The notes under the pieces are model-generated. The model was not told the origin of the DNA and ran no database searches. It worked only from the letters and a program-made list of their open reading frames with translations. The translations under genes and the position numbers were made by a program. From NCBI RefSeq assembly GCF_020179405.1, contig NZ_JAICBZ010000028.1:1-44297 (forward strand): DNA of 44,297 nucleotides, written 5' to 3'. Below, piece after piece: positions 2,128 through 23,543 of this stretch; position 1 is the first letter of the stretch, and each line of letters starts with the position of its first letter. This DNA is from Xinfangfangia pollutisoli. Lineage in GTDB: Bacteria > Pseudomonadota > Alphaproteobacteria > Rhodobacterales > Rhodobacteraceae.

Positions 2128-2142
2128 TTTCGCAGACTGAAA
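2128..2142. promoter_or_regulatory. IclR-type operator, copy a
   Basis: TTTCGCAGACTGAAA lies between the end of tctA (set 1) and the start of the beta-keto acid cleavage enzyme gene. It matches the motif TTYC-N7-GRAA found at eleven other spacers in this block. Confidence 0.45.
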
Positions 2143-2150
2143 CCGCGGGT

Positions 2151-3656
2151 TCAGGCCTCTTCGGTAAAGGCCTCGGCCCGTCCCCGGCGCAGCTGCGGCA
2201 CGACCACCAGCAGGCACAGCAGGAACGCAAGCCCCAGCATCGCCAGCGACATCGGCCTTTGCCAGAAGATCGCCGGATCGCCTTGCGACAGCAGCAGCGC
2301 CCGGCGGAAATGTTCCTCCATCATCGGGCCAAGGATGAAGCCCAGCAGCAACGGGGCCGCCTCGGCCCGCATGCGCCAGAACAGGCAGCCCAGCAGCGTG
2401 AATCCTGCGGCGAACCAGATGGGCAGGGTGCTGTTGCCGATCGAGTAAAGGCCAACGCAGCAGACGGTCAGGATCACGGGATAGAGGATCCAGTAGGACA
2501 CCCGGATCAGCCGGATCCACAGCGGGATCAGCGGCAGGTTCAGGATGACCAGCATCGCGTTGCCGACCCACATGCTGGCGATCAGGCCCCAGAACACTTC
2601 GGGATTCGAGACCATGACGAAGGGGCCGGGGGCGATATTGTGAACCATCAGCGCGCCGATCATCAGCGCCATGACGCCGTTGGACGGGATGCCCAGCGTC
2701 AGCATCGGGATGAACGAGGTCTGCGCACCGGCATTGTTCGCAGCCTCCGGCCCCGCCAGCCCGGCGATGGCGCCGTGGCCGAAGGTCTCGGGCCGTTTCG
2801 ACAGCCGCTTTTCCAGCGCATAGGAGGCGAAGGAGGACATCATCGCCCCGCCGCCCGGCAGCAGCCCCATGAATGCGCCAAGCGCGGTGCCGCGGATCAC
2901 CGGCAGCGCCGCTTCCGCCGCCTCGGCCTTTGTGATCCAGAGGTTGGTCAGGCTGGGCGCCATGACGTCGCGCGTCTGGTCGCGGCGGATGTTCATCACC
3001 ACATCCGTAAAGGCGAAAAGCCCCATGGCGATTGCGACGAACTCGATCCCCTCGGTCAGCGAGAAGTAACCGAACGTGAAGCGATAGGCGCCGCTGTTCA
3101 CATCCGCGCCCACAAGGCCCAGGATCAGCCCGGTCAGCACCATGGCCACGCCCTTCAGGAAGGACCCGTGCGCAAGAAGCGTCGCGGCGGTCAGGCCCAG
3201 CACCATCAGCGCGAAATACTCGACGGGACCGAACAGGAACCCCACCCCGGCCAGAAGGGGCGAGAAACCCGCGATCAGGACGGTGGCAACGGTGCCTGCG
3301 AAGAACGACCCCAGGGCCGCGATGGCCAGGGCGGCACCTGCCCGGCCCTTGCGGGCCATCTGGTGCCCGTCAAGGCAGGTGACGATCGACGAGGACTCTC
3401 CGGGCAGGTTCACCAGGATTGCGGTGGTCGAGCCGCCATATTGCGCGCCGTAATAGATCCCGGCGATCATGATCAATCCGGTCACCGGCGCCAGCGTATA
3501 GGTCAGCGGCAGAAGCATCGCGATGGTGGCAAGCGGGCCCAGGCCCGGCAGGATGCCGATGGCCGTGCCGACCATGACGCCGATCAGGCAGAAGGCCAGG
3601 TTGGTCAGCGACAGGGCCGAGTGGAAACCGATCAGAAGGTTGTCAAACAGCTCCAT
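2151..3656 (-). CDS. tctA: TTT transporter large membrane subunit TctA (set 1)
   Basis: A 501-residue multi-span inner-membrane protein of the TctA family, the transport subunit of tripartite tricarboxylate transporters, which take up carboxylates using an ion gradient. Both internally related halves show the family signature: GILPGLGP at about 34-41 and GLLPGGGAM in the second half, followed by [20 protein letters not shown]. Length is typical (about 500). It starts 3 bp after tctB, so the two are translationally linked. Set 1 order on the minus strand is tctC, tctB, tctA, then the beta-keto acid cleavage enzyme and cupin. Confidence 0.95.
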
Positions 3657-3659
3657 GAT

Positions 3660-4136
3660 CTACCACCCGATCCAACGGCTCAGGGGGGGCGACAGCATCG
3701 GCAGGCTGACCCCCAGCCCCAGAACGAACACGAGGTAGCAGAAGACCACCAGCAGCACCGCCAACAGCGCCGCGCGGCGCAAGGCGAAGTCCGGCGAGGG
3801 GATCAAGACGGTGACGACCAGCGCAGGGACAGCGATCGCGAGACCGGCACATCGGACCAGCACGGCAAAGACAATCAGCGACAGGGTCAGGCCAAGGGCC
3901 GGGACCAGCGGCACCGCGCGCGCCGCATCGCCGGCCCGCAGCAGGCCGCGGGTCAGGATCGCCAGCCCAAGCGCAGACAGGCACAGGCCAAGGAGGAGCG
4001 GGAACATGCCCGGCCCCATCATGGCGAAAGATCCCAGATCATATTTCAGCGACAGCGCCGCCGTCAGTGCGCCGAAACCGGCGAAGAACAGGCCCGATTC
4101 CACATCGGCCCGGCGGGGGTTGAGCTTGGCATCCAT
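3660..4136 (-). CDS. tctB: TTT transporter small membrane subunit TctB (set 1)
   Basis: A 158-residue hydrophobic protein with about four membrane segments and the TctB hallmark GPGMFP at 41-46. TctB pairs with TctA in the inner membrane; its exact job is not settled for the family. It sits 67 bp downstream of tctC and 3 bp upstream of tctA. CCTCC on the plus strand just beyond the start (4142-4148) gives a usable GGAGG ribosome site. Confidence 0.92.
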   Translation of the reverse strand: MDAKLNPRRADVESGLFFAGFGALTAALSLKYDLGSFAMMGPGMFPLLLGLCLSALGLAILTRGLLRAGDAARAVPLVPALGLTLSLIVFAVLVRCAGLAIAVPALVVTVLIPSPDFALRRAALLAVLLVVFCYLVFVLGLGVSLPMLSPPLSRWIGW

Positions 4137-4203
4137 GCGCCGCGCCTCCTTTGAATTTCTCGTCCCCGCGGCGATCTGAACCGCCCCGGGGGGTCGCGGC
4201 AGA

Positions 4204-5172
4204 CTATTCCGGCCGAAGCCCGATGCTTTCGACGATGGATTTGTTGAAGGCCATCTGCGCGGTGATATAGGCCAAGGCCTCGTCGGGCGCGTTCACCACC
4301 GGGTTCACGTTCAGCGCCTTCAGCTTCTGCTGCACCTCCGGTTCGGCGAAGATCTCCTTCAGGGTCAGGTTCAGCTTCTCCACCACCTCGGGCGGGGTGC
4401 CTGCCGGCGCGATCAGGGCCAGCCAGGTGGTGAACTGATAGCCTTCGACCACGCCGCCGATGGGCGGCAGACCCTCGGCCCCGAACGGTTCGGTCCCGGT
4501 GGACCCGATCATGCTCAGCCGGCCGCTTTCAGCAAAGGGACGGACGGTTTCATAGCCGCTGAACACCATGTCCACGAAGCCGCCCGCCACGGCATTCAGG
4601 CTTTCGCCCGACCCCTTGAAGGGAATGTCCCGGATCTCGATCCCGGCGGCGGTGTTCAGAAGGCCAAGCGCAAGCTGAACGCTGGCGCCGCGCCCGGGCG
4701 TTCCCGCCGTCAGGACACCGGGATTGGCCTTGGCATAGTCCACCAGCCCCTTGATGTCGGTGAAGGGCAGCCCCTGCCGGATGCCCAGGACGAAGGGATA
4801 GTCGGTCAAGATCGTCACCGGGGCGAAGGCGGCGGGCGTCTCATAGGGCATCTGGGCGTAGATGTAGGGGTTGATCGACAGGGCCGAGGTCACCACCAGC
4901 AGCGTGTGCCCATCCGGCTCTGCCTCGGCCAGAAGCGCCGTGCCGATGATCGAGTTGCTGCCGGGGTGGTTCTCCTTGATCACCGGCTGGCCCAGCGCCT
5001 GCGCCAGCCGGTCGGCGAAGACATTGGCCACCGCATCCGTGCCCCCGCCCGGCGCATAGGGCAGGATCAGCGTGATCGGCTTGGAAGGATAATCCTCGGC
5101 CTGGGCATGGGCCGCCGATAAACCGAAGGCGGTGGCCAGAACGGCCAGTAGTCCGGTCGCGGTCTTGTTCAT
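4204..5172 (-). CDS. tctC: TTT periplasmic substrate receptor TctC/Bug (set 1)
   Basis: A 322-residue extracytoplasmic binding protein of the TctC/Bug family. A Sec signal peptide (hydrophobic stretch LLAVLATAFGLSAAHA) is followed by the mature start AEDYPSKP. The ligand-binding loop LPYAPGGGTDAVAN carries the conserved aspartate. Two adjacent ATG codons exist at 5175 and 5172; the second is preferred because AGGAGG lies five bases before it rather than two. It follows the SnoaL-like gene by 49 bp and precedes tctB, so the receptor belongs to the minus-strand operon. The ligand cannot be read from sequence; carboxylates are usual for the family. Confidence 0.94.
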   Translation of the reverse strand: MNKTATGLLAVLATAFGLSAAHAQAEDYPSKPITLILPYAPGGGTDAVANVFADRLAQALGQPVIKENHPGSNSIIGTALLAEAEPDGHTLLVVTSALSINPYIYAQMPYETPAAFAPVTILTDYPFVLGIRQGLPFTDIKGLVDYAKANPGVLTAGTPGRGASVQLALGLLNTAAGIEIRDIPFKGSGESLNAVAGGFVDMVFSGYETVRPFAESGRLSMIGSTGTEPFGAEGLPPIGGVVEGYQFTTWLALIAPAGTPPEVVEKLNLTLKEIFAEPEVQQKLKALNVNPVVNAPDEALAYITAQMAFNKSIVESIGLRPE

Positions 5173-5221
5173 CATTTCCTCCTCTTGGTGTCTGTTCCGG
5201 GACAGGCCGACCCTCCTCCGG

Positions 5222-5671
5222 TCAGCCGCGGAATGTGGTGGTGGGCACGCCGCCCTTGAACCAGGTCTCGAATTTGCGATGGCGGTAGCGCCAAATCCCG
5301 TCCGGACCGCGCAGGCTGGTGTCGGTCGCCAGCGCGATCTGGATCGGCGGGGCCGAAGGCAGGACGGGCTCGCCGTCCTGGGCGTGCAGCAAGAGATACC
5401 AGGTCGAGACCGCCTGATCCGCCGTGACGAATTCCGCACGGAAGTTCGTCACCGAATGCACGGCAACCCTGGCCCCGCGCGACAGGCGGTACGCATAGAA
5501 TTTGCGGATGTGTTCGCGCCCGGAATACGTCGTCTCGCTGGCCTCGAACACACCGTCCTCGGTGTAGAAATCAGCCGCGTTGCGCCCCCAGTTGGTATCG
5601 ACATCATGCCAGAAGTCGACCAGCCGCAGATGCAGCTCTTGCGTCAGTCTCAGCCTGTCTTCAGACCGCAT
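5222..5671 (-). CDS. SnoaL/NTF2-like protein
   Basis: A 149-residue protein with the features of the SnoaL-like NTF2 superfamily: an N-terminal helix region (HLRLVDFWHDVDTNW), a FYTEDGVFEASETTYSGRE segment matching the usual 'period of damage, then molecule' layout, and a long C-terminal sheet ending in WRYRHRKFETWF. Such proteins are small enzymes (isomerases, hydratases) or ligand binders. The start at 5671 is preceded by AAAGGA about eight bases upstream. It sits between the Asp-box protein and tctC of set 1, with an operator-like site (5746-5760) in front, so it may have its own promoter inside the operon. Confidence 0.8.
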   Translation of the reverse strand: MRSEDRLRLTQELHLRLVDFWHDVDTNWGRNAADFYTEDGVFEASETTYSGREHIRKFYAYRLSRGARVAVHSVTNFRAEFVTADQAVSTWYLLLHAQDGEPVLPSAPPIQIALATDTSLRGPDGIWRYRHRKFETWFKGGVPTTTFRG

Positions 5672-5745
5672 CAATCGTTCCTTTCGTCTTTCTCCCGCCG
5701 ACAGAAGCACGGCGCCCACGCCCGCGCCCGGGGGGGCCGGGCGAG

Positions 5746-5760
5746 TTTCTGCCTGCGAAA
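5746..5760. promoter_or_regulatory. IclR-type operator, copy b
   Basis: TTTCTGCCTGCGAAA lies in the 103-bp gap before the SnoaL-like gene. It differs from copy j (16836-16850) at one position. Confidence 0.5.
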
Positions 5761-5774
5761 TTGGTGGGATCGGC

Positions 5775-6911
5775 TCAGACCGAAAATTCGGTCGCCGCGA
5801 TGTGGCGGACACCGCCATTCGCCTGGATCGGGTCACGGGCGCAGTTCATGTAATAGACCGCCAGCACCCGCCCCGGGGCGATCTCGATCGCGCGCGGATA
5901 GCCCAGATCCCAGCTGCCGCCATCGTCGCGCAGGATCATCTCGCTGCCCCAGCTGGCGCCACCGTCGGGGCTCAGCCGGTAGCGGATCCCCTGCGGGGCC
6001 AGACGATAACCGTAAACGCAGAGGATGCGGCCGTCGGACAGTTCGACCAGATGCCCCGGCGCGCCCCAGTCGTTGACGCGGTTCAGGAAGGCGAAGGTCC
6101 GCCCCCCGTCGCGGCTTTCGAAAAGTTCCGTCCAGAACGCCCCGGTCGGGCTGCGCTGGCAGCGCAGCGCCATCAGGATGCGGCCGTCGCGCAACACGAG
6201 GGGGCGGGGATACATGTGGCGATGCGACCAGAAGCGCGGCGTTCCGCTGACCGGCGCGTCAACTTCATCATCCCATTGCGGCGGGGTGATGAAGGACAGG
6301 AAATTCCAGTCCTCGCCGTCCCAGCTGCCATAAAGCACCGGCCGGCGGCGCCAGGCATCCGCCGAAGCGGCGGTCATGGCGCAAAGCCACAGCCCATCGG
6401 CCCGCCGCGCCACCGACCCGTGTCCCGAGACCGAGGCCAGATTGAACATCGGCAGCCGCAACGGCTTGCGCCAGCTGCGCCCCCCATTGACCGAGATGCG
6501 CATCCAGGGGCGCGCGTCCGGGATCAGCAGCGCCGGGGCAGCGCCCGAGACCATCAGGATATCGGCATCCGGTTCGGGGTTCAGCGGTCTGTCATCGGGA
6601 TCGACCGGCAAAGCGAAGTCGGCAGGCTCGGGCGTCTCGAAGATCGGGGTCAGACTTGCGGGATTCCAGGTCTTGCCCCCGTCGGTGGAGCGGATCGAGA
6701 CCATGCGCCGCTTCCCCATGGTGATGATGTCATGGCTGATCCCTTCGCCACTGGCATAGCTGCAGCCGGCCTGCATGAAAGCCGCGACGATATCGCCGTT
6801 GGCAACCTGCCAGAGACCGCCCAGAAAGGGGTGGCTGGTGAAGGCATTCTCATCACGCAACACGATGCGATGCACGGCATCGGGCGCCAGGCGCGGCCTG
6901 TCCTCGATCAT
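5775..6911 (-). CDS. Asp-box (BNR/sialidase-like) beta-propeller protein
   Basis: A 378-residue protein with several Asp-box repeats: STDGGKTW at 75-82, then SVNGGRSW, SRDGGRTF and SPDGGASW. This spacing marks a sialidase-fold six-bladed propeller (exo-alpha-sialidase-like family). No signal peptide is visible, so it appears cytoplasmic, unlike secreted sialidases. Family members without a signal may hydrolyse or bind a small imported sugar acid or conjugate; the function here is unknown. The start at 6911 has GGAG about ten bases upstream. It is the first gene of the minus-strand set 1 operon and diverges from set 2 across a 251-bp region with two operator-like sites. Confidence 0.82.
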   Translation of the reverse strand: MIEDRPRLAPDAVHRIVLRDENAFTSHPFLGGLWQVANGDIVAAFMQAGCSYASGEGISHDIITMGKRRMVSIRSTDGGKTWNPASLTPIFETPEPADFALPVDPDDRPLNPEPDADILMVSGAAPALLIPDARPWMRISVNGGRSWRKPLRLPMFNLASVSGHGSVARRADGLWLCAMTAASADAWRRRPVLYGSWDGEDWNFLSFITPPQWDDEVDAPVSGTPRFWSHRHMYPRPLVLRDGRILMALRCQRSPTGAFWTELFESRDGGRTFAFLNRVNDWGAPGHLVELSDGRILCVYGYRLAPQGIRYRLSPDGGASWGSEMILRDDGGSWDLGYPRAIEIAPGRVLAVYYMNCARDPIQANGGVRHIAATEFSV

Positions 6912-7020
6912 CTGGATCCGTCTCCCTCGGGGCCGCAGTCTCGGGCCCGGCGGCCGATGCGGCAATGTCCCATCGGCTTAGAAACCCCATCTCCTTCGCA
7001 CAATTGATGGCTCGGAACGA

Positions 7021-7035
7021 TTTCAGTCCGCGAAA
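7021..7035. promoter_or_regulatory. IclR-type operator, copy c
   Basis: TTTCAGTCCGCGAAA lies in the divergent control region between the set 1 operon (start 6911) and tctC of set 2 (start 7163). It is paired with copy d, 57 bp away centre to centre. Confidence 0.5.
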
Positions 7036-7077
7036 CCCGTGGCAGAAGCGCCGGCCGCCGGCCTTCTTGCGGAACGG

Positions 7078-7092
7078 TTTCATCTGGTGAAA
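7078..7092. promoter_or_regulatory. IclR-type operator, copy d
   Basis: TTTCATCTGGTGAAA has five-base palindromic arms. It is in the same divergent region as copy c, about 70 bp before the set 2 tctC start. Confidence 0.5.
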
Positions 7093-7162
7093 ATGCTTCA
7101 GGCCTGCACCCTGCGGCGCCCCGCCAAGCCTATTGTCGGTCGCCACATGTCTGGAGGAGATC

Positions 7163-8167
7163 ATGTTGGACCCCAAGATTTTCCCGACCCGCCGCCGGTT
7201 CCTTGCCTCGCTCGGCGCGGCATCCGCCCTGTCGATGGCCCCGGCCCACCGCGCCCTTGCCGCCGGCTGGCCGGACCGTCCCGTCACCATCGTGGTGCCC
7301 TATGGCCCCGGCGCCAGCAATGACATCTTCGCGCGCAGCCTGGCGGACCTTCTGTCCAAGGATCTGGGGCAGCCCTTCGTGGTCGAGAACAGGCCCGGCG
7401 CCGGAGGCTTCACCGGCGCGCTGTCCGTGGTGAATGCGCCGGCGGATGGCTACCGCTTCCTTCTGATGCCGAACAGCATCGCCAGCTTCGACTCTGTCAT
7501 GGCGCTGGATCTTGATGCGACCGCCGATGTCACACCCGTCGCGCAACTGGCCACCGCGCCGGGCAGCATGGTTGTTTCTTCGGCCCTGCCGGCGAACACG
7601 GTGCAGGAGTTCATCGCCTTCGCCAATGGCCGGGAAGAGGATACGTTCTACGGCTATGTCGGTGTCGGCGCGACGCAGCACCAGCTGGCCGAGAAGTTCC
7701 GCAAGCTGACGGGTGTGAAGATGAAGGGCGTCAACTACCAGGGCTCGGCCGAGGTGACGACGGATCTTCTGGCCGGCCGGCTGCACGTTCAGTTCTCGAC
7801 CGTCTCGGCAGTGCGGGGCCAGGTCGAGGCGGGCGAATTGAAGATCCTGGCCTACACCAACGCCAGCTCCGCCCCCGGATCGCCGCCCGCGCCGACGATG
7901 GCCGAGGCGGGTGTGGCCGGGATGGCGGAGACGCAGGTCTGGTGGGGCATCTTCGGCCCGGCCGGGTTGCCCCCGGAGGTCGTCACCCCGATGAACGCGG
8001 CGGTCAATCGCGCGCTGGGGGATGCGGCCGTCATCGACACCTTCGCCAAGAACGGCGCCGTTCCCACCCCGCGCTCGCCTGAAGAATTCGCGGCGGCGAT
8101 CGGGTCTGCCGTCGCCTCGGCCAAGGAATTCGTCGAATTCACCGGGATCGTCCCCGGCGGCGGCTGA
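7163..8167 (+). CDS. tctC: TTT periplasmic substrate receptor TctC/Bug (set 2)
   Basis: A 334-residue TctC/Bug receptor. The N-terminus has a twin-arginine-like signal (TRRRFLAS at 9-16, then an alanine-rich stretch ending RALA), so this receptor may be exported folded by Tat rather than by Sec. The binding loop VPYGPGASNDIFAR keeps the conserved aspartate but has ASN where GG is common. The start at 7163 is chosen for GGAGGAG three to four bases upstream; a more upstream in-frame GTG/ATG at 7133-7148 would precede the ribosome site. It begins the plus-strand set 2 operon, tctC-tctB-tctA. Confidence 0.94.
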   Translation: MLDPKIFPTRRRFLASLGAASALSMAPAHRALAAGWPDRPVTIVVPYGPGASNDIFARSLADLLSKDLGQPFVVENRPGAGGFTGALSVVNAPADGYRFLLMPNSIASFDSVMALDLDATADVTPVAQLATAPGSMVVSSALPANTVQEFIAFANGREEDTFYGYVGVGATQHQLAEKFRKLTGVKMKGVNYQGSAEVTTDLLAGRLHVQFSTVSAVRGQVEAGELKILAYTNASSAPGSPPAPTMAEAGVAGMAETQVWWGIFGPAGLPPEVVTPMNAAVNRALGDAAVIDTFAKNGAVPTPRSPEEFAAAIGSAVASAKEFVEFTGIVPGGG

Positions 8168-8244
8168 GCGCGGCCCGAAAAAGACAAAGGCCGCGGCTGG
8201 TTCGCAGGGGCGGCGGCCCTTCACGACGCGCAGAAAGACAGGTC

Positions 8245-8715
8245 ATGCAGACAAACTCCAGGGATCTCTGCGCGGGGCTTTTGTTCCTGTGCATCGGTGG
8301 CTTCTTCGTGCTGGGCGCCTGGCTCGGGTTGCGGATCGGCACCACGCAGGCGACGGGGCCCGGCTTCTTTCCCGCCTATCTCGGCCTCGGCCTGTGCCTG
8401 TTGGGCGGGGTGATCATCTGGGGCGCCCTGCGCGGCACCGCGCTGACCCTGCGCGAGGGGATCGGACGTGTTCCCTGGCGCGGGGGCGGGCTTGTCCTTG
8501 CCGCGATCCTGTTCTTCGCGCTGGCGATCCAGCCGCTGGGGGCGCTGCCGGCCATCCTTGGCAGCACGATCCTGGCCGCCGTCGCGCCCGCGGATGCAAC
8601 CTGGAGGTCGGCGCTGCTGACCGCCGCCATCCTGACCGCCTTCTGCGTCGCGGTTTTCTTCTATGCGCTCGGGCTGCCCTATCCGCTGCTCGGCCCCTGG
8701 CTTTCGGGACGGTAG
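8245..8715 (+). CDS. tctB: TTT transporter small membrane subunit TctB (set 2)
   Basis: A 156-residue hydrophobic TctB protein with GPGFFP at 38-43 and about four membrane segments. It follows tctC after 77 bp, in which a weak GC-rich inverted repeat could reduce read-through and favour receptor over membrane subunits. It precedes tctA by 8 bp. The ribosome site is weak. Confidence 0.92.
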   Translation: MQTNSRDLCAGLLFLCIGGFFVLGAWLGLRIGTTQATGPGFFPAYLGLGLCLLGGVIIWGALRGTALTLREGIGRVPWRGGGLVLAAILFFALAIQPLGALPAILGSTILAAVAPADATWRSALLTAAILTAFCVAVFFYALGLPYPLLGPWLSGR

Positions 8716-8723
8716 GCGCCACC

Positions 8724-10235
8724 ATGGACTTTCTGGATCACCTGGCCCTGGGACTTGCCACCGCCCTTCAGGCGGAAAGCCTGTTCTACTGCTTCATCGG
8801 TGTCCTTCTGGGCACGTTCATCGGCGTCCTGCCGGGCATCGGCCCCACCGCCACTATCGCCATGCTGCTGCCGGTGACGTATTTCCTGTCCCCCACCGCC
8901 GCCCTGATCATGCTGGCAGGCATTTACTACGGCTCGCAATACGGCGGATCGACCACCGCGATCCTGATGAACCTGCCGGGCGAGGTCTCGTCGTCGGTCA
9001 CCGCCATCGACGGCTACCAGATGGCGCGGAAGGGCGAGGCCGGCAAGGCGCTGGCCATCGCGGCGATCGGGTCTTTCGTGGCGGGCACTTTCGCGACCTT
9101 CCTCATCGCGCTGGCCGCCGTGCCGCTGTCATCGCTGGCGCTGAGGTTCGGCTCGACCGAATACTTCGCCCTGATCGTGCTGGGGCTGGTGACCTCGGTC
9201 GTCCTGGCGCATGGCTCGGTCATCAAGGGCGTGGCGATGATCCTGACCGGGATGCTGTTCGGCCTGGTCGGCACTGATACCGACAGCGGCATGTTCCGCT
9301 ACACGCTGGGCTTCTACCAGCTGTCCGACGGGCTGGAGACGGTGGCGGTCGCGCTGGGGATCTTCGGCATTTCCGAGATCCTGCGCAATCTTGAAGGCGG
9401 CGCGGACAGCGCGGGCCTGGGCACGGCCCGGATCACCAGCCTGATGCCCTCGCGCGCCGATCTGCGCGCCGCTGCCCCGCCGATCCTGCGCGGCTCGCTT
9501 CTGGGGGCGGTGATGGGGGTGCTGCCGGGGGGCGGGTCGATCCTTTCGGCCTTTTCCGCCTATGCGCTGGAAAAGAAACTGTCGCGCCATCCCGAACGCT
9601 TCGGCCATGGCGCGATCGAGGGGGTCGCGGCGCCGGAATCCGCGAACAACGCAGGCGCGCAGACCAGCTTCATCCCGATGCTGACGCTGGGCATTCCGTC
9701 CAACGCGCTGATGGCACTGATGGCGGGGGCGCTGATGATCCACGGGATCACGCCCGGGCCGAACGTGATCCGCGAACAGCCCGATCTGTTCTGGGGCGTC
9801 ATCGCCAGCATGTGGATCGGCAATGCGATGCTGGTGGTGCTGAACCTGCCGCTGGTAGGCCTTTGGGTCGCGCTGCTGAAGATCCCCTACCGGGTGCTGC
9901 TGCCCGCCATCGTGATCTTCTCGACCATCGGGGTCTATACCGTCAACAACAGCGGCTTCGACCTTTACGTCCTGATCTTCTTCGGCACGCTCGGCTATGT
10001 CTTCCGCAAGCTGGGCTGCGAGGTGGCGCCCTTCCTGATCGGCTTCGTCCTGAGCAAGCTGCTGGAGACGCATTTCCACCGGGCGCTGGTGTTCTCGGGC
10101 GGCGATCTGACGGTCTTCCTGCGCGAGCCGATCAGCGCCGCCATCCTGGCGCTGACCGGCTTCGTCGTGCTGCTGGTGGCCCTGCCCGCCTTCCGCCGGA
10201 CCCGCAAGCAGGCCTTTGCAGACAGCGACGACTGA
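8724..10235 (+). CDS. tctA: TTT transporter large membrane subunit TctA (set 2)
   Basis: A 503-residue TctA permease subunit starting MDFLDHLALGL. The first-half signature is [17 protein letters not shown] and the second half has GVLPGGGSI followed by [20 protein letters not shown], nearly identical to set 1. The frame remains open upstream of 8724, but homologous length and the short gap to tctB support this ATG. It ends 3 bp before the stop of the convergent IclR gene, leaving no room for a terminator between them. Confidence 0.95.
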   Translation: MDFLDHLALGLATALQAESLFYCFIGVLLGTFIGVLPGIGPTATIAMLLPVTYFLSPTAALIMLAGIYYGSQYGGSTTAILMNLPGEVSSSVTAIDGYQMARKGEAGKALAIAAIGSFVAGTFATFLIALAAVPLSSLALRFGSTEYFALIVLGLVTSVVLAHGSVIKGVAMILTGMLFGLVGTDTDSGMFRYTLGFYQLSDGLETVAVALGIFGISEILRNLEGGADSAGLGTARITSLMPSRADLRAAAPPILRGSLLGAVMGVLPGGGSILSAFSAYALEKKLSRHPERFGHGAIEGVAAPESANNAGAQTSFIPMLTLGIPSNALMALMAGALMIHGITPGPNVIREQPDLFWGVIASMWIGNAMLVVLNLPLVGLWVALLKIPYRVLLPAIVIFSTIGVYTVNNSGFDLYVLIFFGTLGYVFRKLGCEVAPFLIGFVLSKLLETHFHRALVFSGGDLTVFLREPISAAILALTGFVVLLVALPAFRRTRKQAFADSDD

Positions 10236-10238
10236 CCG

Positions 10239-11198: not shown

Positions 11199-11351
11199 TT
11201 GATCCCTCCCCTGGATCCCCGCAGACCTGCAAGCGGGTTTGGACAGGGCGCCACGATGAAGGGTCAAGGTGGTCGGCGCGTCAAAGGGCGGCGCCTGTCC
11301 GCGTTCGAGGTTACAAACTAGCCCGAAGCGCGGAGATCACGCCATAATAAG

Positions 11352-11366
11352 TTTCGCACAGTGAAA
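11352..11366. promoter_or_regulatory. IclR-type operator, copy e
   Basis: TTTCGCACAGTGAAA lies in the 301-bp region between iclR1 (start 11198) and the aldolase gene (start 11500). The rest of that spacer shows no gene. Confidence 0.55.
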
Positions 11367-13265: not shown

Positions 13266-13278
13266 CGCGCCCCGCTTC

Positions 13279-14317: not shown

Positions 14318-14328
14318 AAGCCGGGCCG

Positions 14329-15138: not shown

Positions 15139-15254
15139 AGGCCCTCCTCCGGCGGACAAGCCGCCGACCCGGAACGGCCGCGCCATGGCCGCGCGCCTTT
15201 CGATGGCAAGCCTAGCCGCAGCATGGGCAAGATGCGATCTGTATCGCATGCGGA

Positions 15255-15269
15255 TTTCGCCTGGCGGAA
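15255..15269. promoter_or_regulatory. IclR-type operator, copy h
   Basis: TTTCGCCTGGCGGAA overlaps a perfect 20-bp palindrome at 15260-15279 (CCTGGCGGAATTCCGCCAGG) and is upstream of iclR2. A third half-site TTCCGCC lies at 15270-15276. Confidence 0.65.
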
Positions 15270-15286
15270 TTCCGCCAGGACCTGGG

Positions 15287-15301
15287 TTCCGCCTGGCGGA
15301 A
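15287..15301. promoter_or_regulatory. IclR-type operator, copy i (perfect palindrome)
   Basis: TTCCGCCTGGCGGAA is a perfect inverted repeat around one central T and is the best copy of the motif. It is 32 bp (about three helical turns) from copy h and directly after the end of the fumarase beta gene. Confidence 0.7.
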
Positions 15302-15304
15302 AGA

Positions 15305-16784: not shown

Positions 16785-16835
16785 GCCGCCATGCTACGGC
16801 GTCCCTTGTGCGGGTATCGCGCCCCCCGGCGGCGA

Positions 16836-16850
16836 TTTCGGCCTGCGAAA
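16836..16850. promoter_or_regulatory. IclR-type operator, copy j
   Basis: TTTCGGCCTGCGAAA sits midway between the divergent starts of the fumarase alpha gene (16784) and the Ldh2 gene (16923). Confidence 0.6.
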
Positions 16851-16922
16851 CCGCCTGTTCTCCGGCTTCGGTCCTGCAGGCCGCCCCCTAGGCTTGTCCC
16901 GAACCGAGAGGGGGACTGGCTG

Positions 16923-17972
16923 ATGAGTGTGGATGTTCCGGTCGACGCGCTGCGCGCCTTCGTGGCGGATCTGTTCGCGGCGGCGGGCCTGTCGGCGCCC
17001 CTTGCCGCGCGCGTGGCCTCGGCTTTGGTCGAGGCGGACATGTCGGGCCGCAGCTCGCATGGCGTGCTGCAGGCCGAGAACTATCTGGCCCGGCTGGAAA
17101 CCGGCGCCATGACCACCGCCGAGACGCCGGTTGTGGTTCGCGACAGCGGTGGGGTGATCGTGCTGGATGCCGCGCATATGCAGGGCCATATCGCGGCCGA
17201 AGAGGCGATGGCGCTGGCCATCCGGCGCGCTCGTCTCACGGGCATCGCGGCCGTGGCCGTCCGCCGCGGGTTCCACACCGGTGTGGTGGGCCGCTATGTC
17301 CGCATGGCTGCCGAGGCCGGCTGCGTCGGCATCGCCATCAGCAACGCCAAGCCCGTGATGCCGGCGCCCGGCGGGGCGGAGCGGCTGGTCGGGACCAATC
17401 CGCTTGCCATCGGGCTGCCGCAGGCCGAGGGGCCAGCGATCGTTCTGGACATGGCGACGACGGCAGGCACAATCGGACGGATCCGCCAGGCGATGGCGGC
17501 GGGCAATTCGATCCCCGAAGGCTGGGCGGTGGATGCCAAGGGACGGCCGACCACCGATGCCGCAACAGCGATGAAAGGCCTGCTGCTTCCGGCCGGCGGG
17601 GCCAAGGGATTTGGACTGGCCTTCATGATCGACCTTCTCGCTGGCCTGCTCTCGGGCGGGGTCTGGGGCGCGGCTTTGGGCGAATTGAACGACGATCCGA
17701 AGAACCCCTACAACTCCTCCTACCTGTTCATCGTCCTGCACATTGCCCATTTCCAGCCATTGGCGGACTTTCAGGCCCAGGCGGCTGAGGCCGCCCGCCG
17801 CCTGCGTGGCTCGCGCCGCGCGCCGGGGGTGGATCGCCTGTTCACTCCCGGCGAGCAAAGCGCCGAGGCACTTGCCACAAACCGCGGAACCGTTCCGCTG
17901 ACCGATACGGTCCGCAAGACCCTGGCCGCGCGTGCCCTGCGTCTGGGCGTCGCGCGGCCGGACTTTCTGTAG
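16923..17972 (+). CDS. Ldh2-family malate/L-lactate dehydrogenase
   Basis: A 349-residue NAD(P)-dependent oxidoreductase of the Ldh2/MDH-type family (malate, L-lactate, ureidoglycolate, 2,3-diketogulonate and similar dehydrogenases). It shows the SGRSSHGV segment with the catalytic histidine, NPLAIGLP, IPEGWAVDAKGRPTTD and the C-terminal GGAKGFGLAFMIDLLAG. Length is normal. AGGGGGA precedes the ATG. It probably oxidises a 2-hydroxy acid to a 2-keto acid. The control region is shared with the fumarase-like operon, so the two likely serve one pathway. Confidence 0.92.
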   Translation: MSVDVPVDALRAFVADLFAAAGLSAPLAARVASALVEADMSGRSSHGVLQAENYLARLETGAMTTAETPVVVRDSGGVIVLDAAHMQGHIAAEEAMALAIRRARLTGIAAVAVRRGFHTGVVGRYVRMAAEAGCVGIAISNAKPVMPAPGGAERLVGTNPLAIGLPQAEGPAIVLDMATTAGTIGRIRQAMAAGNSIPEGWAVDAKGRPTTDAATAMKGLLLPAGGAKGFGLAFMIDLLAGLLSGGVWGAALGELNDDPKNPYNSSYLFIVLHIAHFQPLADFQAQAAEAARRLRGSRRAPGVDRLFTPGEQSAEALATNRGTVPLTDTVRKTLAARALRLGVARPDFL

Positions 17973-17976
17973 CCAT

Positions 17977-18007
17977 CCGCCCCGCGCCGGAACCAGGCGC
18001 GGGGCGG
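17977..18007. terminator. Hairpin between convergent genes
   Basis: A perfect 12-bp stem (CCGCCCCGCGCC with its complement) and a 7-base loop lies between the convergent Ldh2 gene and tctC of set 3. It has no T-tract. It is likely a bidirectional stop signal or mRNA end protector. Confidence 0.6.
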
Positions 18008-18030
18008 GCGCGGATCAGCCAGGCCTGATG

Positions 18031-19014
18031 TCAGTCAACCTTGATTCCGGCGGCCGCGATGACCTTGGCGAACTTCTCCTGATCGGACTTGATCACGGCG
18101 CCGAACGCTTCGGGCGTGCTGGCGTTGATCGTGGTGCCCAACTTGTCAAAGAATTCCTTTGCCTCGGGCGTCCGGAGATAGTCGACGATCGCCGCGTTCA
18201 GCGCCGCGACGATTTCGGGCGGGGTGCCCGCAGGGGCGACGAAGCCATTCCAGGCGGTCAGCTCATAGCCCGGCACCACCTCGGCCACCGTGGGGACATC
18301 GGGCAGGATGGGCGAGCGTTCCGCGCTGGTCACCGCCAGCGCGATCAGCGCGCCGGAGTCGATATGCGGCACCGCCGTCGTCAGCGTGTCGAAGGCGAAG
18401 GGCACCTCATCCGCCAGCAAAGCGCCCAGCAGCTTGCCGCTGCCCGCATAGGGGATATGGACCGCCGAGCCCTCTATCCCCTGCAGCAGCATTTCCATCG
18501 AAAGGTGCTGGCTGTAGCCGATCCCGCCGCTGCCATAGTCGAAGGCATCGGGGTTCGCCTTCACCTTGGCCACCCATTCCTCCAGCGTGGTCACCCCGAA
18601 AGAGGGGTTCACCAGCAAGACATTCGGCACCGAGGAAACCATGGCGATCGGGGCGAAATCGGCCACCGGATCATAGCTGACATCCGGGGCCAGCGAAGGC
18701 AGGATCGCGAACGAGGAGAAGACGAACTGGATCGTCTGCCCGTCCGGGGCCGCCGCCTTCACCGTCTGCGCCGCCAGCGCCCCGCCCGATCCGGGCAGGT
18801 TGTCCACGACGAAGCTTTCGCCGAACTTCGCCGTCAGCGCCTCGGCCACCAGGCGCGAGACGGTGTCGGCAGTGCCGCCCGGCGACGATCCGACGACGAT
18901 CCGGACAAGGTCGTCCGGGTAGGCGTCCTGCGCAAGGGCGCCATGTGTCAGGGCGCCATGTGTCAGGCCGATGGCGCCAAGCGCCGCCGCCGCGATCAGG
19001 GATCTAATCCGCAT
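18031..19014 (-). CDS. tctC: TTT periplasmic substrate receptor TctC/Bug (set 3)
   Basis: A 327-residue TctC/Bug receptor with a Sec-type signal peptide that contains a duplicated HGALT unit (THGALTHGALA) made by an exact 15-bp tandem repeat. The binding loop is VGSSPGGTADTVSR, lacking the common PY before the glycine-rich turn but keeping the aspartate. The start at 19014 has GGAGGAGAAGG directly upstream and overlaps the end of the CoA-transferase gene by 11 bp. Unlike the other sets, the receptor is the last gene of its operon (tctB, tctA, CoA-transferase, tctC). Confidence 0.93.
   Translation of the reverse strand: MRIRSLIAAAALGAIGLTHGALTHGALAQDAYPDDLVRIVVGSSPGGTADTVSRLVAEALTAKFGESFVVDNLPGSGGALAAQTVKAAAPDGQTIQFVFSSFAILPSLAPDVSYDPVADFAPIAMVSSVPNVLLVNPSFGVTTLEEWVAKVKANPDAFDYGSGGIGYSQHLSMEMLLQGIEGSAVHIPYAGSGKLLGALLADEVPFAFDTLTTAVPHIDSGALIALAVTSAERSPILPDVPTVAEVVPGYELTAWNGFVAPAGTPPEIVAALNAAIVDYLRTPEAKEFFDKLGTTINASTPEAFGAVIKSDQEKFAKVIAAAGIKVD
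18937..18968. repeat. 15-bp exact tandem duplication in a signal peptide
   Basis: The unit GGGCGCCATGTGTCA occurs twice in direct succession at about 18938-18967. It lies within the tctC signal-peptide coding region and keeps the frame, adding five residues. Confidence 0.85.
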
Positions 19015-20230
19015 CCTTCTCCTCCCGCTGTTGTTCGTTCTGTCCGATCCCGTCGCAAAGCGCCGCGATCTCTTCCGTCGAAAAGCCGAACGCGCGCAGA
19101 ACCTCGCCCGTGTGTTCGCCCATGCGGGGCGGGGGCCGATCCATCCGGGCACCGCCATGATCCAGCCGGAACGCCGCCTTGGGCACGGTGATCGCCCCCG
19201 GGATCCCCGGCGCATCGATGAAGCCATGCAGCGCGTCGCGGCTTTGCATCTGCGGATGGGCCAGCGTCTCGGGCAGGGTCCAGATCCGCGCGGCCGGGAT
19301 GTGATGGGCCTGAAGCCAGTCCTCCCAATCTGCTGCCGGTCGCTGCAACAGGATTGGCCGCAGCACAGCCCGTTCCGCCTCGGCCCCGGCGCGTCGTTCG
19401 GCATTTGTGTGCTTGATCAGACCGGGATGGCCCAGCAACCGCCAAAGCCTTGCCTGCTGCGCCAGGTTGATCGCGGCAAGCTGCAATGGCCCATCCGCCG
19501 TATCGTACAGTCCGACCGTTGCGAATTCATGGTGATTGCCGACGGATTTCGGCGCGCGCCCCGAGCGGCTGTGATTGGTCAGATGCGCGCCCATCAGGAT
19601 CAGCGCGGTGTCCAGCATCGACAGGTCCACCCGCTGGCCGCGCCCCGTCCGCGCGCGCTGGAACAGCGCCGCCGAAAGGGCGAAGGCGGCCATGGTGCCG
19701 GTCGCGTAATCCACCGCGGGGGTGCCGACCTTCATCGGCTGCGTGCCCGGCGCGCCATTGACCATCATCAGGCCCGAGACCGCCTGGATCACCTGGTCAT
19801 AGGCGGTCTGCCCGCCCCGTGGCCCCTCTTGCCCGAAGGCCGAGATCGAGGCGTAGATCAGCCGCGGGTTCAGCGCCGCCAGATCGGGATAACCCAGCCC
19901 CAGCGCCGCCATCGCGCCCGGGCGGAAGTTCTCGACCAGGATGTCCACATCCGCCACCAGCCGCCGCAGCGCGTCCTGGCCTGCCCGGGTCTTCAGATCC
20001 AGCGTGATCGACCGCTTGCCGCCATTCTGGATCAGGAAATGCGTGCCCATCCCCGCCTGCGACAACGCCTCGTCCACCCCATCCAGCCGGGTCTGATCCG
20101 GCGCATGGGGGTTCTCGACGCGGATCACATCGGCCCCGAACAGCGCGAGCTGATAGCTGGCGAAGGGACCGGCCAGCACATGGGTGATGTCGAGGACGCG
20201 GATGCCGGCGAAGGGGCGCAGGTCTTCCAT
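19004..20230 (-). CDS. Class III (CaiB/BaiF) acyl-CoA transferase
   Basis: A 408-residue family III CoA-transferase. D174 in VGTPAVDYATG is the catalytic aspartate position of the family, and the N-terminus GIRVLDITHVLAGPF and VENFRPGAM are typical. These enzymes move CoA between carboxylic acids (for example formyl-CoA:oxalate, succinyl-CoA:citramalate, carnitine). GAGGAGG precedes the start, which overlaps the tctA stop as TGATG. Sitting between tctA and tctC of set 3, it likely activates the acid imported by that transporter to its CoA thioester. The acid is unknown. Confidence 0.94.
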   Translation of the reverse strand: MEDLRPFAGIRVLDITHVLAGPFASYQLALFGADVIRVENPHAPDQTRLDGVDEALSQAGMGTHFLIQNGGKRSITLDLKTRAGQDALRRLVADVDILVENFRPGAMAALGLGYPDLAALNPRLIYASISAFGQEGPRGGQTAYDQVIQAVSGLMMVNGAPGTQPMKVGTPAVDYATGTMAAFALSAALFQRARTGRGQRVDLSMLDTALILMGAHLTNHSRSGRAPKSVGNHHEFATVGLYDTADGPLQLAAINLAQQARLWRLLGHPGLIKHTNAERRAGAEAERAVLRPILLQRPAADWEDWLQAHHIPAARIWTLPETLAHPQMQSRDALHGFIDAPGIPGAITVPKAAFRLDHGGARMDRPPPRMGEHTGEVLRAFGFSTEEIAALCDGIGQNEQQREEKDAD

Positions 20231-21735
20231 CACGCCTCCTCGGCAAAGGCGTCGCGGCGACGGCGGGCGATGGCCGGGGCGCAGACCAGGACAAGGCCCA
20301 GCGCCGAGACGATCAGGAAGCCCAGGCTGATCGGCTCGGTCACGAAGACGGTCGGATCGCCGCGCGACATCAGCATGCTGCGGCGCAGCTGCTCTTCCAT
20401 CATCGGGCCCAGGATGAAGCCAAGGGTCAAGGGCGCGGGTTCGCATCCCAGACGCATGAAGACATAGCCGAGCAGCGAGAAGACGCTAAGCTCCAGCATC
20501 GAGAAGGCGGTGCCCGAGGCCGAATAGATCCCCACCGCGCTGAAGGCGGTGACGGCCACAACCAGGATCGGATAGGGCACGGTCAGGAAGCGGACCCAAA
20601 GGCCGATCAGCGGCAGGTTCAGCAGGATCAGCATCAGGTTGCCGACCCACATCGACACGATCAGCCCCCAGAACAGCCCGGGCTGCTTGACGATGATGTC
20701 CGGCCCCGGCTGGATCCCCTGCAGGATCATCGCGCCGATCATCAGCGCCATGACGGCGTTGGACGGCAGGCCCAGCGTCAGCATCGGTATGAAGGCGGTC
20801 TGTGAGCCCGCATTGTTGGCGCTTTCCGGCGCGGCCACGCCCTCGATGGCGCCCTTGCCCATCTCGGCCCGGTTCTTCGACACCTTCTTCTCGACGATGT
20901 AAGCTGCGAACGAGGCCAGCATCGCGCCGCCGCCAGGCAGGATCCCAAGGATCGAGCCGATGCCGGTGCCGCGGATCGTGGGCCAGGCGATGCGGCGCAG
21001 ATCTTGCCAGGACAGCCAAAGCCCAGTGACCTTGCGGGTCAGCACCTCGCGGTTCTCGGGTTGCTCCAGATTGCGCAGGATCTCGGCCAGACCGAAAAGG
21101 CCGATGGCAAGCGCCACGAAATCCACCCCGTCGGTCAGCTCGATCAGGCCCAGGTTCAGCCGGGCGGTGCCCGTGTAGATGTCGGTGCCGACCAGGCCCA
21201 GCAACAGCCCCAGCAGAACCATGGCGATGGCCTTGGGAACAGAGCCATGTGCCAGGACGACCGAGGCGATCAGCCCCAGCACCATCATCGAGAAATAGGA
21301 GGGCGGCCGGAAGGCCATGGCGACCTGGGTCAGGGGCGCCGCGAAAAGCGCCACGATCACAGTGGCCACCGTGCCCGCGAAGAACGACGAGATCCCCGCC
21401 GCCGCCAGCGCCTTGCCCGCCATCCCGCGCCGCGCCATCTGGTAGCCGTCCAGCGTGGTGATGGCCGACGATGCCTCGCCGGGCAGGTTCAGCAGGATCG
21501 CTGTGGTCGATCCGCCGTATTGCGCGCCGTAATAGATCCCGGCCAGCATGATCAGCGCGGAATCCGGGGCCATCGTGTAGGTCACCGGCAGCAGGATCGC
21601 GATGGTGGCCAGTGGCCCCACGCCGGGCAGAACGCCGACCAGCGTGCCCGCCAAGGCGCCGAGGAAGCAGAAGAAGATGTTCTTGGCCGCCAGCGCGACG
21701 CTGAAGCCCAGTGCAAGATTGGACAGGAATTCCAA
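20230..21735 (-). CDS. tctA: TTT transporter large membrane subunit TctA (set 3)
   Basis: A 501-residue TctA permease subunit with GVLPGVGPLATIAILLP in the first half and GILPGGGAM then [20 protein letters not shown] in the second. No ATG fits the N-terminus. The start is taken as the TTG at 21735 (giving LEFLSNLALGF, matching the start of the other three TctA proteins), 11 bp after the tctB stop, with a G-rich stretch upstream as weak ribosome site. The frame is open far upstream, but that part overlaps tctB and is not family-like. Confidence 0.92.
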   Translation of the reverse strand: MEFLSNLALGFSVALAAKNIFFCFLGALAGTLVGVLPGVGPLATIAILLPVTYTMAPDSALIMLAGIYYGAQYGGSTTAILLNLPGEASSAITTLDGYQMARRGMAGKALAAAGISSFFAGTVATVIVALFAAPLTQVAMAFRPPSYFSMMVLGLIASVVLAHGSVPKAIAMVLLGLLLGLVGTDIYTGTARLNLGLIELTDGVDFVALAIGLFGLAEILRNLEQPENREVLTRKVTGLWLSWQDLRRIAWPTIRGTGIGSILGILPGGGAMLASFAAYIVEKKVSKNRAEMGKGAIEGVAAPESANNAGSQTAFIPMLTLGLPSNAVMALMIGAMILQGIQPGPDIIVKQPGLFWGLIVSMWVGNLMLILLNLPLIGLWVRFLTVPYPILVVAVTAFSAVGIYSASGTAFSMLELSVFSLLGYVFMRLGCEPAPLTLGFILGPMMEEQLRRSMLMSRGDPTVFVTEPISLGFLIVSALGLVLVCAPAIARRRRDAFAEEA

Positions 21736-21746
21736 ACACCCGCCCC

Positions 21747-22214
21747 CTAGCGCAGAAGATCGCCGATGAGCGGAAGACCAATCCCCAGCCCAAAGGAAAA
21801 GATTGCCACGCAGGCGGCCGTCATCACGATCGCCAGAAGGACGATCCGGCTTGCGCGCATCTGGCCGGTGGCGAAGCCCGCCAGAAGGCTCAGAAGGAAC
21901 AGCGCGGCGATCAGGCCCAGCGGACGCATCACCAGCCCGAACAGCAGCAGCCCGGTCGGGATCAGCACGATCGCCTTCCAGGGAAGCGGTGGGGACGATT
22001 CGGGCCGGGCCACGCGCGTTCCGGCAAGGGCGATGGCCAGGCCAAGCAGGCAAAGCAGGCCGCCGATCACCGCCGGGAAATACCCGGGCCCCATGCGGAA
22101 GGGGGTGCCGAGGCGCAGGCCGAACAAGGCTTGCCCGCAGAACCCCGCCCCGAGGGCCGCGAACAGCAGTCCCGCCGCGATGTCGCTGTTCATTCGGAGT
22201 GGCGTCTCGGTCAT
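21747..22214 (-). CDS. tctB: TTT transporter small membrane subunit TctB (set 3)
   Basis: A 155-residue TctB protein with the GPGYFP hallmark and about four membrane segments, ending GLPLIGDLLR. Two ATG starts are possible, 22214 and 22193, seven codons apart, neither with a strong ribosome site. The longer is listed. It opens the minus-strand set 3 operon and diverges from the enolase-superfamily gene across 171 bp containing an operator-like site. Confidence 0.88.
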   Translation of the reverse strand: MTETPLRMNSDIAAGLLFAALGAGFCGQALFGLRLGTPFRMGPGYFPAVIGGLLCLLGLAIALAGTRVARPESSPPLPWKAIVLIPTGLLLFGLVMRPLGLIAALFLLSLLAGFATGQMRASRIVLLAIVMTAACVAIFSFGLGIGLPLIGDLLR

Positions 22215-22298
22215 CGGCCTGTGCTCGCTTTGTCCCGTGGGGTTGCGAGAGAAGGTTAGACGGCAGGCGCCGCAGGCCACGACCTGCGCTTCCCCCTG

Positions 22299-22313
22299 TT
22301 TCGTTGCGCGGAA
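22299..22313. promoter_or_regulatory. IclR-type operator, copy k
   Basis: TTTCGTTGCGCGGAA lies in the divergent region between tctB of set 3 (start 22214) and the enolase-superfamily gene (start 22386). Confidence 0.5.
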
Positions 22314-22385
22314 TGTCCGGTGGCGCGGCCCCTTGCCTCGGGCGGCGCACCGCATCCTGGCCGAGGGCAGCAAAAGGGCGGGCGC

Positions 22386-23525
22386 ATGAAAATCACCGGA
22401 ACCACCATTCGCGCCTGGCGGCTTCCGCTGGCCTCGCCGATGATCTCGGCCCGCGTGACGATGACCCATCGGGAACTGGTCGTGGTCGAGATCGAGACCT
22501 CGGCCGGCATTTCCGGTACGGGCTGGTGCACCACGGCGGGCGTCGGGGCGGCGGCGGTGCAGGCTTTGCTGTCTGGCTATCTGCTTCCCATGCTGACGGG
22601 CGCCGACCCAAGGATGGTAGAGCGGATCTGGCACCGGCTGTGGATGGAATGCCATGCCGCAGGCCCCGGCGGGATCACCACGCTGGCCCTTTCGGCGCTG
22701 GACATCGCGCTGTGGGACATCAAGGCCAAAGCGGCTGGCGAGCCGCTGTATCGGCTGCTGGGTGGCGGGCCCCGCGGGGTGCCCGTCTATGCCAGTGCCA
22801 TCAATCTGCATCTCTCGCAGGAAGATTTGGTGGCGCAGGCCCGCGCGCAACGTGCCGCCGGCTATCGCGCCTTCAAGCTGAAGGTGGGCCGTCCCGGCCT
22901 GCACGAGGATCTGGAGCGCTGCCTGGCCGTGCGGGCGACCATCGGGGATGACGGCATCCTCATGCTCGATGCCAACCAGAAATGGCAGCTGGGCGAGGCG
23001 ATCCAGCGCTGCCGCATCCTGACCGAGGCCGCCCCGCTGTTCATCGAGGAGCCGCTTCTTTCCGACGATGTCGATGGCCACCGCCGGCTGCGCCAGTCCT
23101 GTGGGGTGCCGGTCGCCATGGGCGAGCAGCTCTGCAATCGGTTCGAGTTCTGGACCTATGTCCGCAGCGATGCGGCAGATTACCTGCAACCAGACGTGTG
23201 GAAGGTGGGCGGCATCACCGAATTCCTGAAGATCGCCGCCCTTGGCGCTTCGACCAACCTGCCGATCTCGCCCCATGGCGCGGTCGAGCTGTCGGTGCAT
23301 CTGGCGGCGGCCCTGCCCAATGCCCTGCATGTCGAGAACATCTTCGGCCTGAACCTGTTCGATCTGGGCGCCACCACGAAGCCCCTGCCCTTCCGGGATG
23401 GGCTGTTGCAACCTCCGGACGGACCGGGCCATGGTGTGGTCTTCGACGGGCCGGCGCTGGCGGGGGCCGGGATCCGTCTGGGCGAGGCGATCGACCGGAT
23501 GCCGTTGCAGCGCGACCCGGGGTGA
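22386..23525 (+). CDS. Mandelate racemase/muconate lactonizing-type enolase superfamily enzyme
   Basis: A 379-residue enolase-superfamily protein. The KxK pair (K164, K166 in FKLKVGRP), metal ligands D195 (LDANQKW), E221 (IEEP) and E247 (GEQL), and the catalytic H297 (ISPHGAVE) with D270 all fit the mandelate racemase group, whose members remove an alpha proton from carboxylates for racemisation or dehydration of sugar acids. The start has AAGGGCGGG upstream. It diverges from set 3 and leads into set 4 on the plus strand, separated from tctC of set 4 by 99 bp. Sugar-acid dehydratase or racemase activity is likely; the substrate is open. Confidence 0.93.
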   Translation: MKITGTTIRAWRLPLASPMISARVTMTHRELVVVEIETSAGISGTGWCTTAGVGAAAVQALLSGYLLPMLTGADPRMVERIWHRLWMECHAAGPGGITTLALSALDIALWDIKAKAAGEPLYRLLGGGPRGVPVYASAINLHLSQEDLVAQARAQRAAGYRAFKLKVGRPGLHEDLERCLAVRATIGDDGILMLDANQKWQLGEAIQRCRILTEAAPLFIEEPLLSDDVDGHRRLRQSCGVPVAMGEQLCNRFEFWTYVRSDAADYLQPDVWKVGGITEFLKIAALGASTNLPISPHGAVELSVHLAAALPNALHVENIFGLNLFDLGATTKPLPFRDGLLQPPDGPGHGVVFDGPALAGAGIRLGEAIDRMPLQRDPG

Positions 23526-23528
23526 CCG

Positions 23529-23543
23529 TTCCGGCAGACGGAA
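23529..23543. promoter_or_regulatory. IclR-type operator, copy l
   Basis: TTCCGGCAGACGGAA, extendable by one matching base on each side, lies just after the enolase-superfamily gene and 82 bp before tctC of set 4. It differs from copy g at two central positions. Confidence 0.6.

Follow-up and report, generated by a model that had tools for sequence, protein, structure and literature searches.

We analyzed a stretch of 44,297 nucleotides from Xinfangfangia pollutisoli (assembly GCF_020179405.1, contig NZ_JAICBZ010000028.1, positions 1 to 44,297 of the forward strand), hereafter called the window, and in it a set of 15-bp palindromes of the form TTYC-N7-GRAA spread over a block of transporter and enzyme genes with two regulators of the IclR family. 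Tripartite tricarboxylate transporters (TTT) are numerous and, to our knowledge, mostly without known substrates. The block has four tct gene sets for such transporters, and a palindrome stands upstream of nearly every gene group. It starts with a cupin-like gene (212-1123, named by eye, with no Pfam match) and a BKACE gene (1162-2049), followed by tctA1-B1-C1-SnoaL (2151-5671), a BNR-repeat gene (5775-6911), tctC2-B2-A2 (7163-10235), and the regulator gene iclR1 (10239-11198, minus strand, protein P0001). Next come an aldolase gene (11500-12264), a dehydrogenase gene together with DUF6282 (12261-14226), and iclR2 (14329-15138, minus strand, protein P0002), which has a GTG start after GGAGGA. 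The remaining units are the fumarase-like fumB and fumA (15305-16784), Ldh2 (16923-17972), tctC3, a CoA transferase, tctA3, and tctB3 (18031-22214), an MR_MLE enzyme (22386-23525), and tctC4-PrpD-tctB4-tctA4 (23625-28043). Both regulators score above the Pfam cut-offs of 22 bits for HTH_IclR and 24 bits for IclR_C (45.6 and 54.6 bits for IclR1, 34.6 and 39 bits for IclR2). The block ends with LysR and SDR genes (28405-30509), which have no TTYC-N7-GRAA site and may belong to another circuit.

The window has 13 matches to the palindrome. Twelve of them lie exactly where an earlier note on this DNA had placed them, and none of the twelve covers a single coding base (gene calls by a codon-usage script), as the note had claimed. 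The two leftmost putative operators, at 2128-2142 (minus strand, TTTCGCAGACTGAAA, upstream of the BKACE and cupin-like genes) and 5746-5760 (minus, upstream of SnoaL-tctC1-tctB1-tctA1), have no TA at 38-40 bases past the site end, a distance that becomes important below. Two more, at 7021-7035 (minus) and 7078-7092 (plus), face the BNR-repeat gene and tctC2-B2-A2, with -10-like TAAGCC at 6975-6980 and TATTGT at 7131-7136, respectively; the tctC2 of the related locus L138 has matching sites upstream. The pair at 11352-11366 (minus) and 11407-11421 (plus) faces iclR1 (-10-like TAACCT, 11308-11313) and the aldolase gene (TAGGCC, 11460-11465). Upstream of DUF6282-dehydrogenase lies 14303-14317 (minus), with no TA at 38-40, and upstream of iclR2 are 15255-15269 (minus; -10-like TAGGCT, 15209-15214) and, 32 bp from it, a second putative operator at 15287-15301 (minus). 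Two sites appear to be common to divergent genes: 16836-16850 to fumA (-10-like TAGCAT, 16791-16796, minus) and Ldh2 (TAGGCT, 16889-16894, plus), and 22299-22313 to tctB3 (TAACCT, 22253-22258, minus) and MR_MLE, the latter having no TA at 38-40; locus L017 is arranged likewise. The last one, at 23529-23543 (plus, no TA at 38-40), is upstream of tctC4-PrpD-tctB4-tctA4. The start-to-start spacing of paired sites is 57, 55, and 32 bases in the window and 68, 51, and 34 in L138, with no fixed phase. In all 13 promoters from BKACE to tctC4, a site is centred 59-161 bp upstream of the start codon, and in 9 of the 13 this distance is 78-92, the start codons being our choice. The match that we add to the twelve, at 12868-12882, lies within the dehydrogenase gene and is probably not an operator.

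The number of matches is far above chance, as the earlier note had estimated. Shuffles keeping dinucleotides gave 1.30 matches on average and seven at most, and none out of 100 reached 13. The expected frequency of about one site per 16 kb also agrees with the genome itself, where 266 sites in 4.41 Mb (one per 16.6 kb) compare with 186 for the reversed pattern. On the other hand, the sites had been described as mostly of the strict form TTYCG-N5-CGRAA, which is incorrect, as only 6 of the 12 fit it. Six strict sites in the window are still many relative to the 0.29 expected (Poisson p 7e-7). In the whole genome there are 29 strict sites vs 31 of the reversed form. As reversing the strict pattern makes it no rarer in the genome, most of the sites elsewhere appear to be background. 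As for placement, positions 2128-23543 are 91% coding, so the 12 listed sites share around 1.9 kb of spacer. We examined 48 sites (all 23 strict and 25 loose) from the 253 outside the window and found 34 to be coding (19/23 strict, 15/25 loose), vs 1 of the 13 in the window (Fisher p 5e-5). Hence, in this sample we did not find the same density in unrelated spacers, a possibility raised in the earlier note, and the cluster of palindromes is local to the window. A regulon spanning the genome was also considered, and the examined outside sites show no sign of it. That the matches result from chance, or from coding or repeat bias in a GC-rich genome, has next to no probability. The genome-wide parity of the strict pattern and its reversal would be in line with it, but the shuffles, the strict-site enrichment in the window, and the spacer placement led us to reject it, and the fixed distance and the recurrence in other genera described below add to this.

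The palindromes are of a published kind of IclR operator; the earlier note had remarked that operators of this family often have such a form. Among the transporter subunits, TctC and TctA presumably correspond to COG3181 and COG3333. In their study of IclR proteins, Suvorova and Gelfand (2021, PMC8222616) describe WTT-11-AAW (WTTYCRYW3RYGRAAW) as one of four group 1 operator subtypes, and they associate COG3181 and COG3333 with IclR regulons. All 12 sites fit the shared 15-bp palindromic frame TTYC-N7-GRAA, TTYCRYNNNRYGRAA, and the half-sites have R at base 5 in 22/24 cases and Y at base 6 in 18/24, while the outer W of the published subtype (A or T flanking the frame) is present in only 14/24. 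The block is also unusually large: according to the passages covered from the same paper, the targets of an IclR protein are in general its own gene plus one or two operons next to it, whereas here 13 promoters have sites. Systems for terephthalate with TphR and TphC are similar in combining an IclR-type regulator with a TTT-kind transporter receptor, but the TphR motif, TTTTTGCGCATAGCGCAAAAA in a table of PMC8222616, is not TTYC-N7-GRAA, and no ring-cleaving enzyme was found among the window proteins scanned, unlike in TphR/TphC systems.

The sites recur near related regulators in other genomes, where the earlier note had suggested looking for conservation. In seven other genomes of the family with homologs of either regulator, the corresponding 3.7 kb loci all have at least one site, for a total of 11, some of which are perhaps coding; one of them, in L003, is identical over its 15 bases to the coding match at 12868. 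For a broader sample, we scanned species genomes with an alignment of eight homologs and took the best 80 of 178 related loci (IclR2-like loci). A site lies at most 400 bp upstream of the regulator match in 43 of the 80, and the reversed motif in none. Over the 1.52 Mb of these loci there are 269 sites vs 46 reversed. Looking for sites within 300 bp upstream of homologs of the window genes, we found them at fumA (22/28), the aldolase (26/51), tctC (34/75), iclR2 (30/80), and DUF6282 (17/52), and in smaller samples at SnoaL (3/6), MR_MLE (2/4), BKACE (4/15), and Ldh2 (3/12). The downstream operon genes fumB (0/28) and CoA transferase (0/6) lacked an upstream site. Counts were low for the dehydrogenase (1/21), the cupin-like gene (3/57), tctA (1/7), PrpD (0/3), and SDR (0/6). 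The loci of the closest IclR1 relatives, introduced below, carry between three and eight sites each (6/6, 14-20 kb). In many Bradyrhizobium loci (L024, L027, L029, L030, L033, L034, and others), a near-identical operator, TTCCACCAGGTGGAA, lies directly before the regulator match.

These data bear on the identity of the protein reading the sites. The earlier note had supposed that one or both IclR proteins bind them. That the palindromes are IclR operators read by at least one of these two proteins is well supported by the published motif type, by the 43 of 80 loci, and by the six IclR1 loci, while which protein goes to which site is predicted from sequence comparison. A reader outside the IclR family, e.g., the LysR encoded at 28405 or a host factor, is in our opinion highly improbable. 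It would be compatible with the fact that binding by IclR1 and IclR2 is itself deduced, but LysR has no homolog at threshold in the 80 loci, yet the sites are present there, and they accompany IclR genes in other genera, besides having the published IclR form.

A further feature of the sites is their distance to a putative -10 element, an aspect absent from the earlier note. A TA starts 38-40 bases past the site end in 8 of the 13 window promoters (tctC2, iclR1, aldolase, Ldh2, fumA, BNR, iclR2, and tctB3). In shuffles, the best three-base slot collected 2.1 on average, and none of 3000 reached eight. Of the 530 oriented flanks in the 80 loci, 95 have a TA in this slot, compared with 17-41 in other slots and 7/88 for the reversed motif; in these flanks the TA extends to TAnnnT, and there is a weak T at 17-bp -35 spacing. 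In the six IclR1 loci the same slot is occupied at 22 of 32 sites, other slots having 1-7. In the Bradyrhizobium loci, in the opposite direction, TA is instead frequent at offsets 10 and 14. If transcription starts around 12 bases downstream of the -10 T, the site centre would be near -59.

This geometry resembles that of MhpR, the activator of the mhp genes in Escherichia coli K-12 (PRK09834, as we take it), which also belongs to the IclR family. There, a 15-bp palindrome ends 39 bases before TATACT, beside the gene annotated as an activator, and we take the operator centre to be at -58. Among NCBIfam models, NF007342 fits both window regulators best, but their scores of 223.8 and 228 bits are below its cut-off of 251 and do not qualify them as MhpR equivalogs. 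They also differ from MhpR in half-site (GTGCAC in MhpR, TTYCG in the window) and are only 23% and 29% identical to it. A fixed distance of 38-40 bases, with the site upstream of the -35, leads us to read the proteins as activators, and the 8 of 13 window promoters with MhpR-like geometry (operator end around 39 bases before the -10) suggest that both act from about -59.

Several observations weigh against this reading. Five of the 13 window promoters have no TA at 38-40. The relatives are not independent, and once collapsed into 14 clusters, 12 have a TA at 38-40 vs up to 11 elsewhere, which is near saturation. No peak at 38-40 is seen in flanks that point from a site to the IclR2-like gene, so the promoters of the regulators may work otherwise. 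This last point is also what one might expect if the proteins were repressors that hold the promoters shut until a ligand arrives, and the IclR family does include repressors and dual regulators (PMC8222616, in the part covered). We nevertheless find repression quite improbable, as the fixed distance puts the site upstream of the -35, like at the promoter beside E. coli mhpR.

Are the activators two, and do they have separate targets? IclR1 and IclR2 share 31-33% identity. We searched for IclR1 orthologs (E <= 1e-70) in 56 genomes, which cover 58 of the 80 IclR2-like loci, and found them in six (49-67% identity). At the same E-value, besides the gene of the window itself, there were none among 294 genomes of the family and none among 384 of the class; another order had one in 1 of 397 genomes, a hit that agrees with G687 in contig number, place, size, and score. 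Ten plasmid records have IclR1-like proteins, the best at 44% identity. A 97-row tree puts IclR1 and its six orthologs in one group and IclR2 and the regulators of L016 and L017 in another, each supported at 100/100. Their neighbours differ too. L140 and L149 are near relatives and do not count as independent. The six IclR1 loci have SnoaL (5/6), the cupin-like gene (5/6), the aldolase (4/6), tctA (4/6), BKACE (3/6), and BNR (2/6), and none has fumA, fumB, CoA transferase, or Ldh2; an MR_MLE enzyme (27%) is found in one. On the IclR2 side, the dehydrogenase occurs both in L016, together with DUF6282, and in L017, together with fumAB, MR_MLE, tct3, CoA transferase, and Ldh2; neither locus has the aldolase, BKACE, or SnoaL. 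This split matches the gene order of the window to the left and right of around 12.3 kb, which argues for two abutting regulons. The proposed IclR1 regulon (212-12264), drawn from the neighbours of IclR1 orthologs, would comprise cupin-like, BKACE, tctABC1-SnoaL, BNR, tctCBA2, iclR1, and aldolase. The proposed IclR2 regulon (12261-28043), drawn from the neighbours in L016 and L017, would comprise dehydrogenase, DUF6282, iclR2, fumAB, Ldh2, tct3 with the CoA transferase, MR_MLE, and tctC4-PrpD-tctB4-tctA4. Only two one-mismatch sites with a TA at 38-40 exist in bases 1-32000, at 11546 (inside the aldolase gene) and 31896, which suggests few or no further members.

The spelling of the sites follows a similar division. 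At base three, the T:C ratio of TA-bearing sites is 41:3 in the IclR1 loci vs 108:62 in the 80 IclR2-like loci (p 7e-5), and 6:10 in L016, L017, and the hand-picked L051. In the window, it is 11:1 for the left six sites and 4:8 for the right six (p 0.009, with half-sites that are not independent and a left/right split of our choosing). The residue two positions after VRxL in the recognition helix may be related to this, an acidic one tracking TTTC (T:C of 76:8 for E and 10:6 for D) and a basic one a mixture (10:14 for K, 27:27 for R); this is confounded by kinship, and we keep it as a lead. Taken together, these comparisons indicate that the block probably holds two regulons side by side, which differ in regulator and in part also in how their sites are spelled.

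The division is not clean. Homologs of the aldolase (51), the cupin-like gene (57), and BKACE (15) also occur beside IclR2-like genes in the 80 loci, and DUF6282 (42%) lies beside one IclR1 ortholog, in L148. Without L051, L016 and L017 have a T:C of 4:4 (p 0.007), and site 16836, on the right side, is TTTC..GAAA. The recognition helices of the two proteins are nearly alike (PKPTxVRxLxTL), so cross-binding is possible. Lastly, L141 combines both gene sets, so that gene type splits incompletely. It belongs to Mesorhizobium sp. Root554, where, at L141 5208-9963, a single regulator accompanies the aldolase, BKACE, cupin-like gene, and DUF6282, perhaps a state preceding the split. One might think of one regulon, with all twelve sites read by a single IclR protein or by the two interchangeably. 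The near-identical helices, the TTYC frame common to both halves of the window, and the loci L021 and L141, where one regulator has aldolase, cupin-like, BKACE, and DUF6282 homologs for neighbours, would be consistent with it. We regard it as unlikely, given the separate ortholog groups with different neighbours and the T:C skew between window halves and between IclR1 and IclR2-like loci. Hence, of the "hidden regulon" put forward in the earlier note, the IclR operators stand, while the single regulon gives way, on the basis of neighbours, tree, and spelling, to what are probably two. In other words, that reading was right in kind and is supported in part, and two neighbouring activator circuits are a better account of the block.

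Our favoured interpretation, which we hold to be fairly likely, is that both IclR-family proteins of the block act as MhpR-like activators and that the 15-bp palindromes are their operators. The data themselves show the sites with their enrichment, the fixed distance, the recurrence upstream of homologous genes in other genomes, and two distinct groups of regulator orthologs. Binding, activation, the assignment of proteins to sites, and the ligands we infer as follows. An IclR dimer would bind TTYC-N7-GRAA, at a site ending 38-40 bases before the -10 hexamer and centred near -59, just upstream of a weak -35. Once it detects a substrate or an intermediate, the protein would bring in RNA polymerase. 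The symmetry of the site could allow a single operator to serve two divergent promoters (16836, 22299). IclR1 would most likely control the units up to around 12.3 kb and IclR2 the ones beyond, with IclR2 accepting TTCC and TTTC and IclR1 mainly TTTC. A wider proposal, about which we have more doubt than confidence, is that there is a branch of IclR activators in Alpha- and Betaproteobacteria defined by a 15-bp palindrome that ends 38-40 bases before the -10 and works in both directions, and that the island joins two circuits of this branch, which have diverged in their regulator and to some extent in operator spelling, with four transporter sets, two signals, and one-way cross-talk.

What is new here is the distance of 38-40 bases to a -10-like TA and, probably, the split into two abutting regulons. 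The passages covered from PMC8222616 give site positions relative to gene starts, and a distance to the -10 was not met in them. Our literature searches turned up no title or abstract on this gene block or on the fixed spacing; the supplementary tables of PMC8222616, outside that search, may list this regulator group. Sites linking each transporter set to one of two regulators tell us what genes function jointly and open a direct route to assaying the ligands. The distance from operator to -10, as in MhpR, might mark activator-type IclR regulons and may be of wider use. If true, such an architectural rule would allow activators and their regulons to be called from sequence alone.

The right-hand surroundings of the block look like the edge of an inserted island. 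A phage-type integrase gene (30640-31404) and a tRNA-Ser (GGA) gene (32351-32440) follow the block, and the GC content falls to 61% at 30-32 kb. The left end of the block is the contig end, and the island was scored by integrase, tRNA, absence from genus-mates, and flank. IclR2 is absent from all 12 other genomes of the genus (0/12), while 11 of these 12 have a match of at least 2.1 kb to the 2.4 kb flank past the tRNA. As the flank is kept in genus-mates lacking IclR2, the block probably arrived as an island that brought its regulators and operators along. The one-mismatch palindrome mentioned above (31896-31910), with its TA at offset 38, is located in the gap that separates integrase and tRNA.

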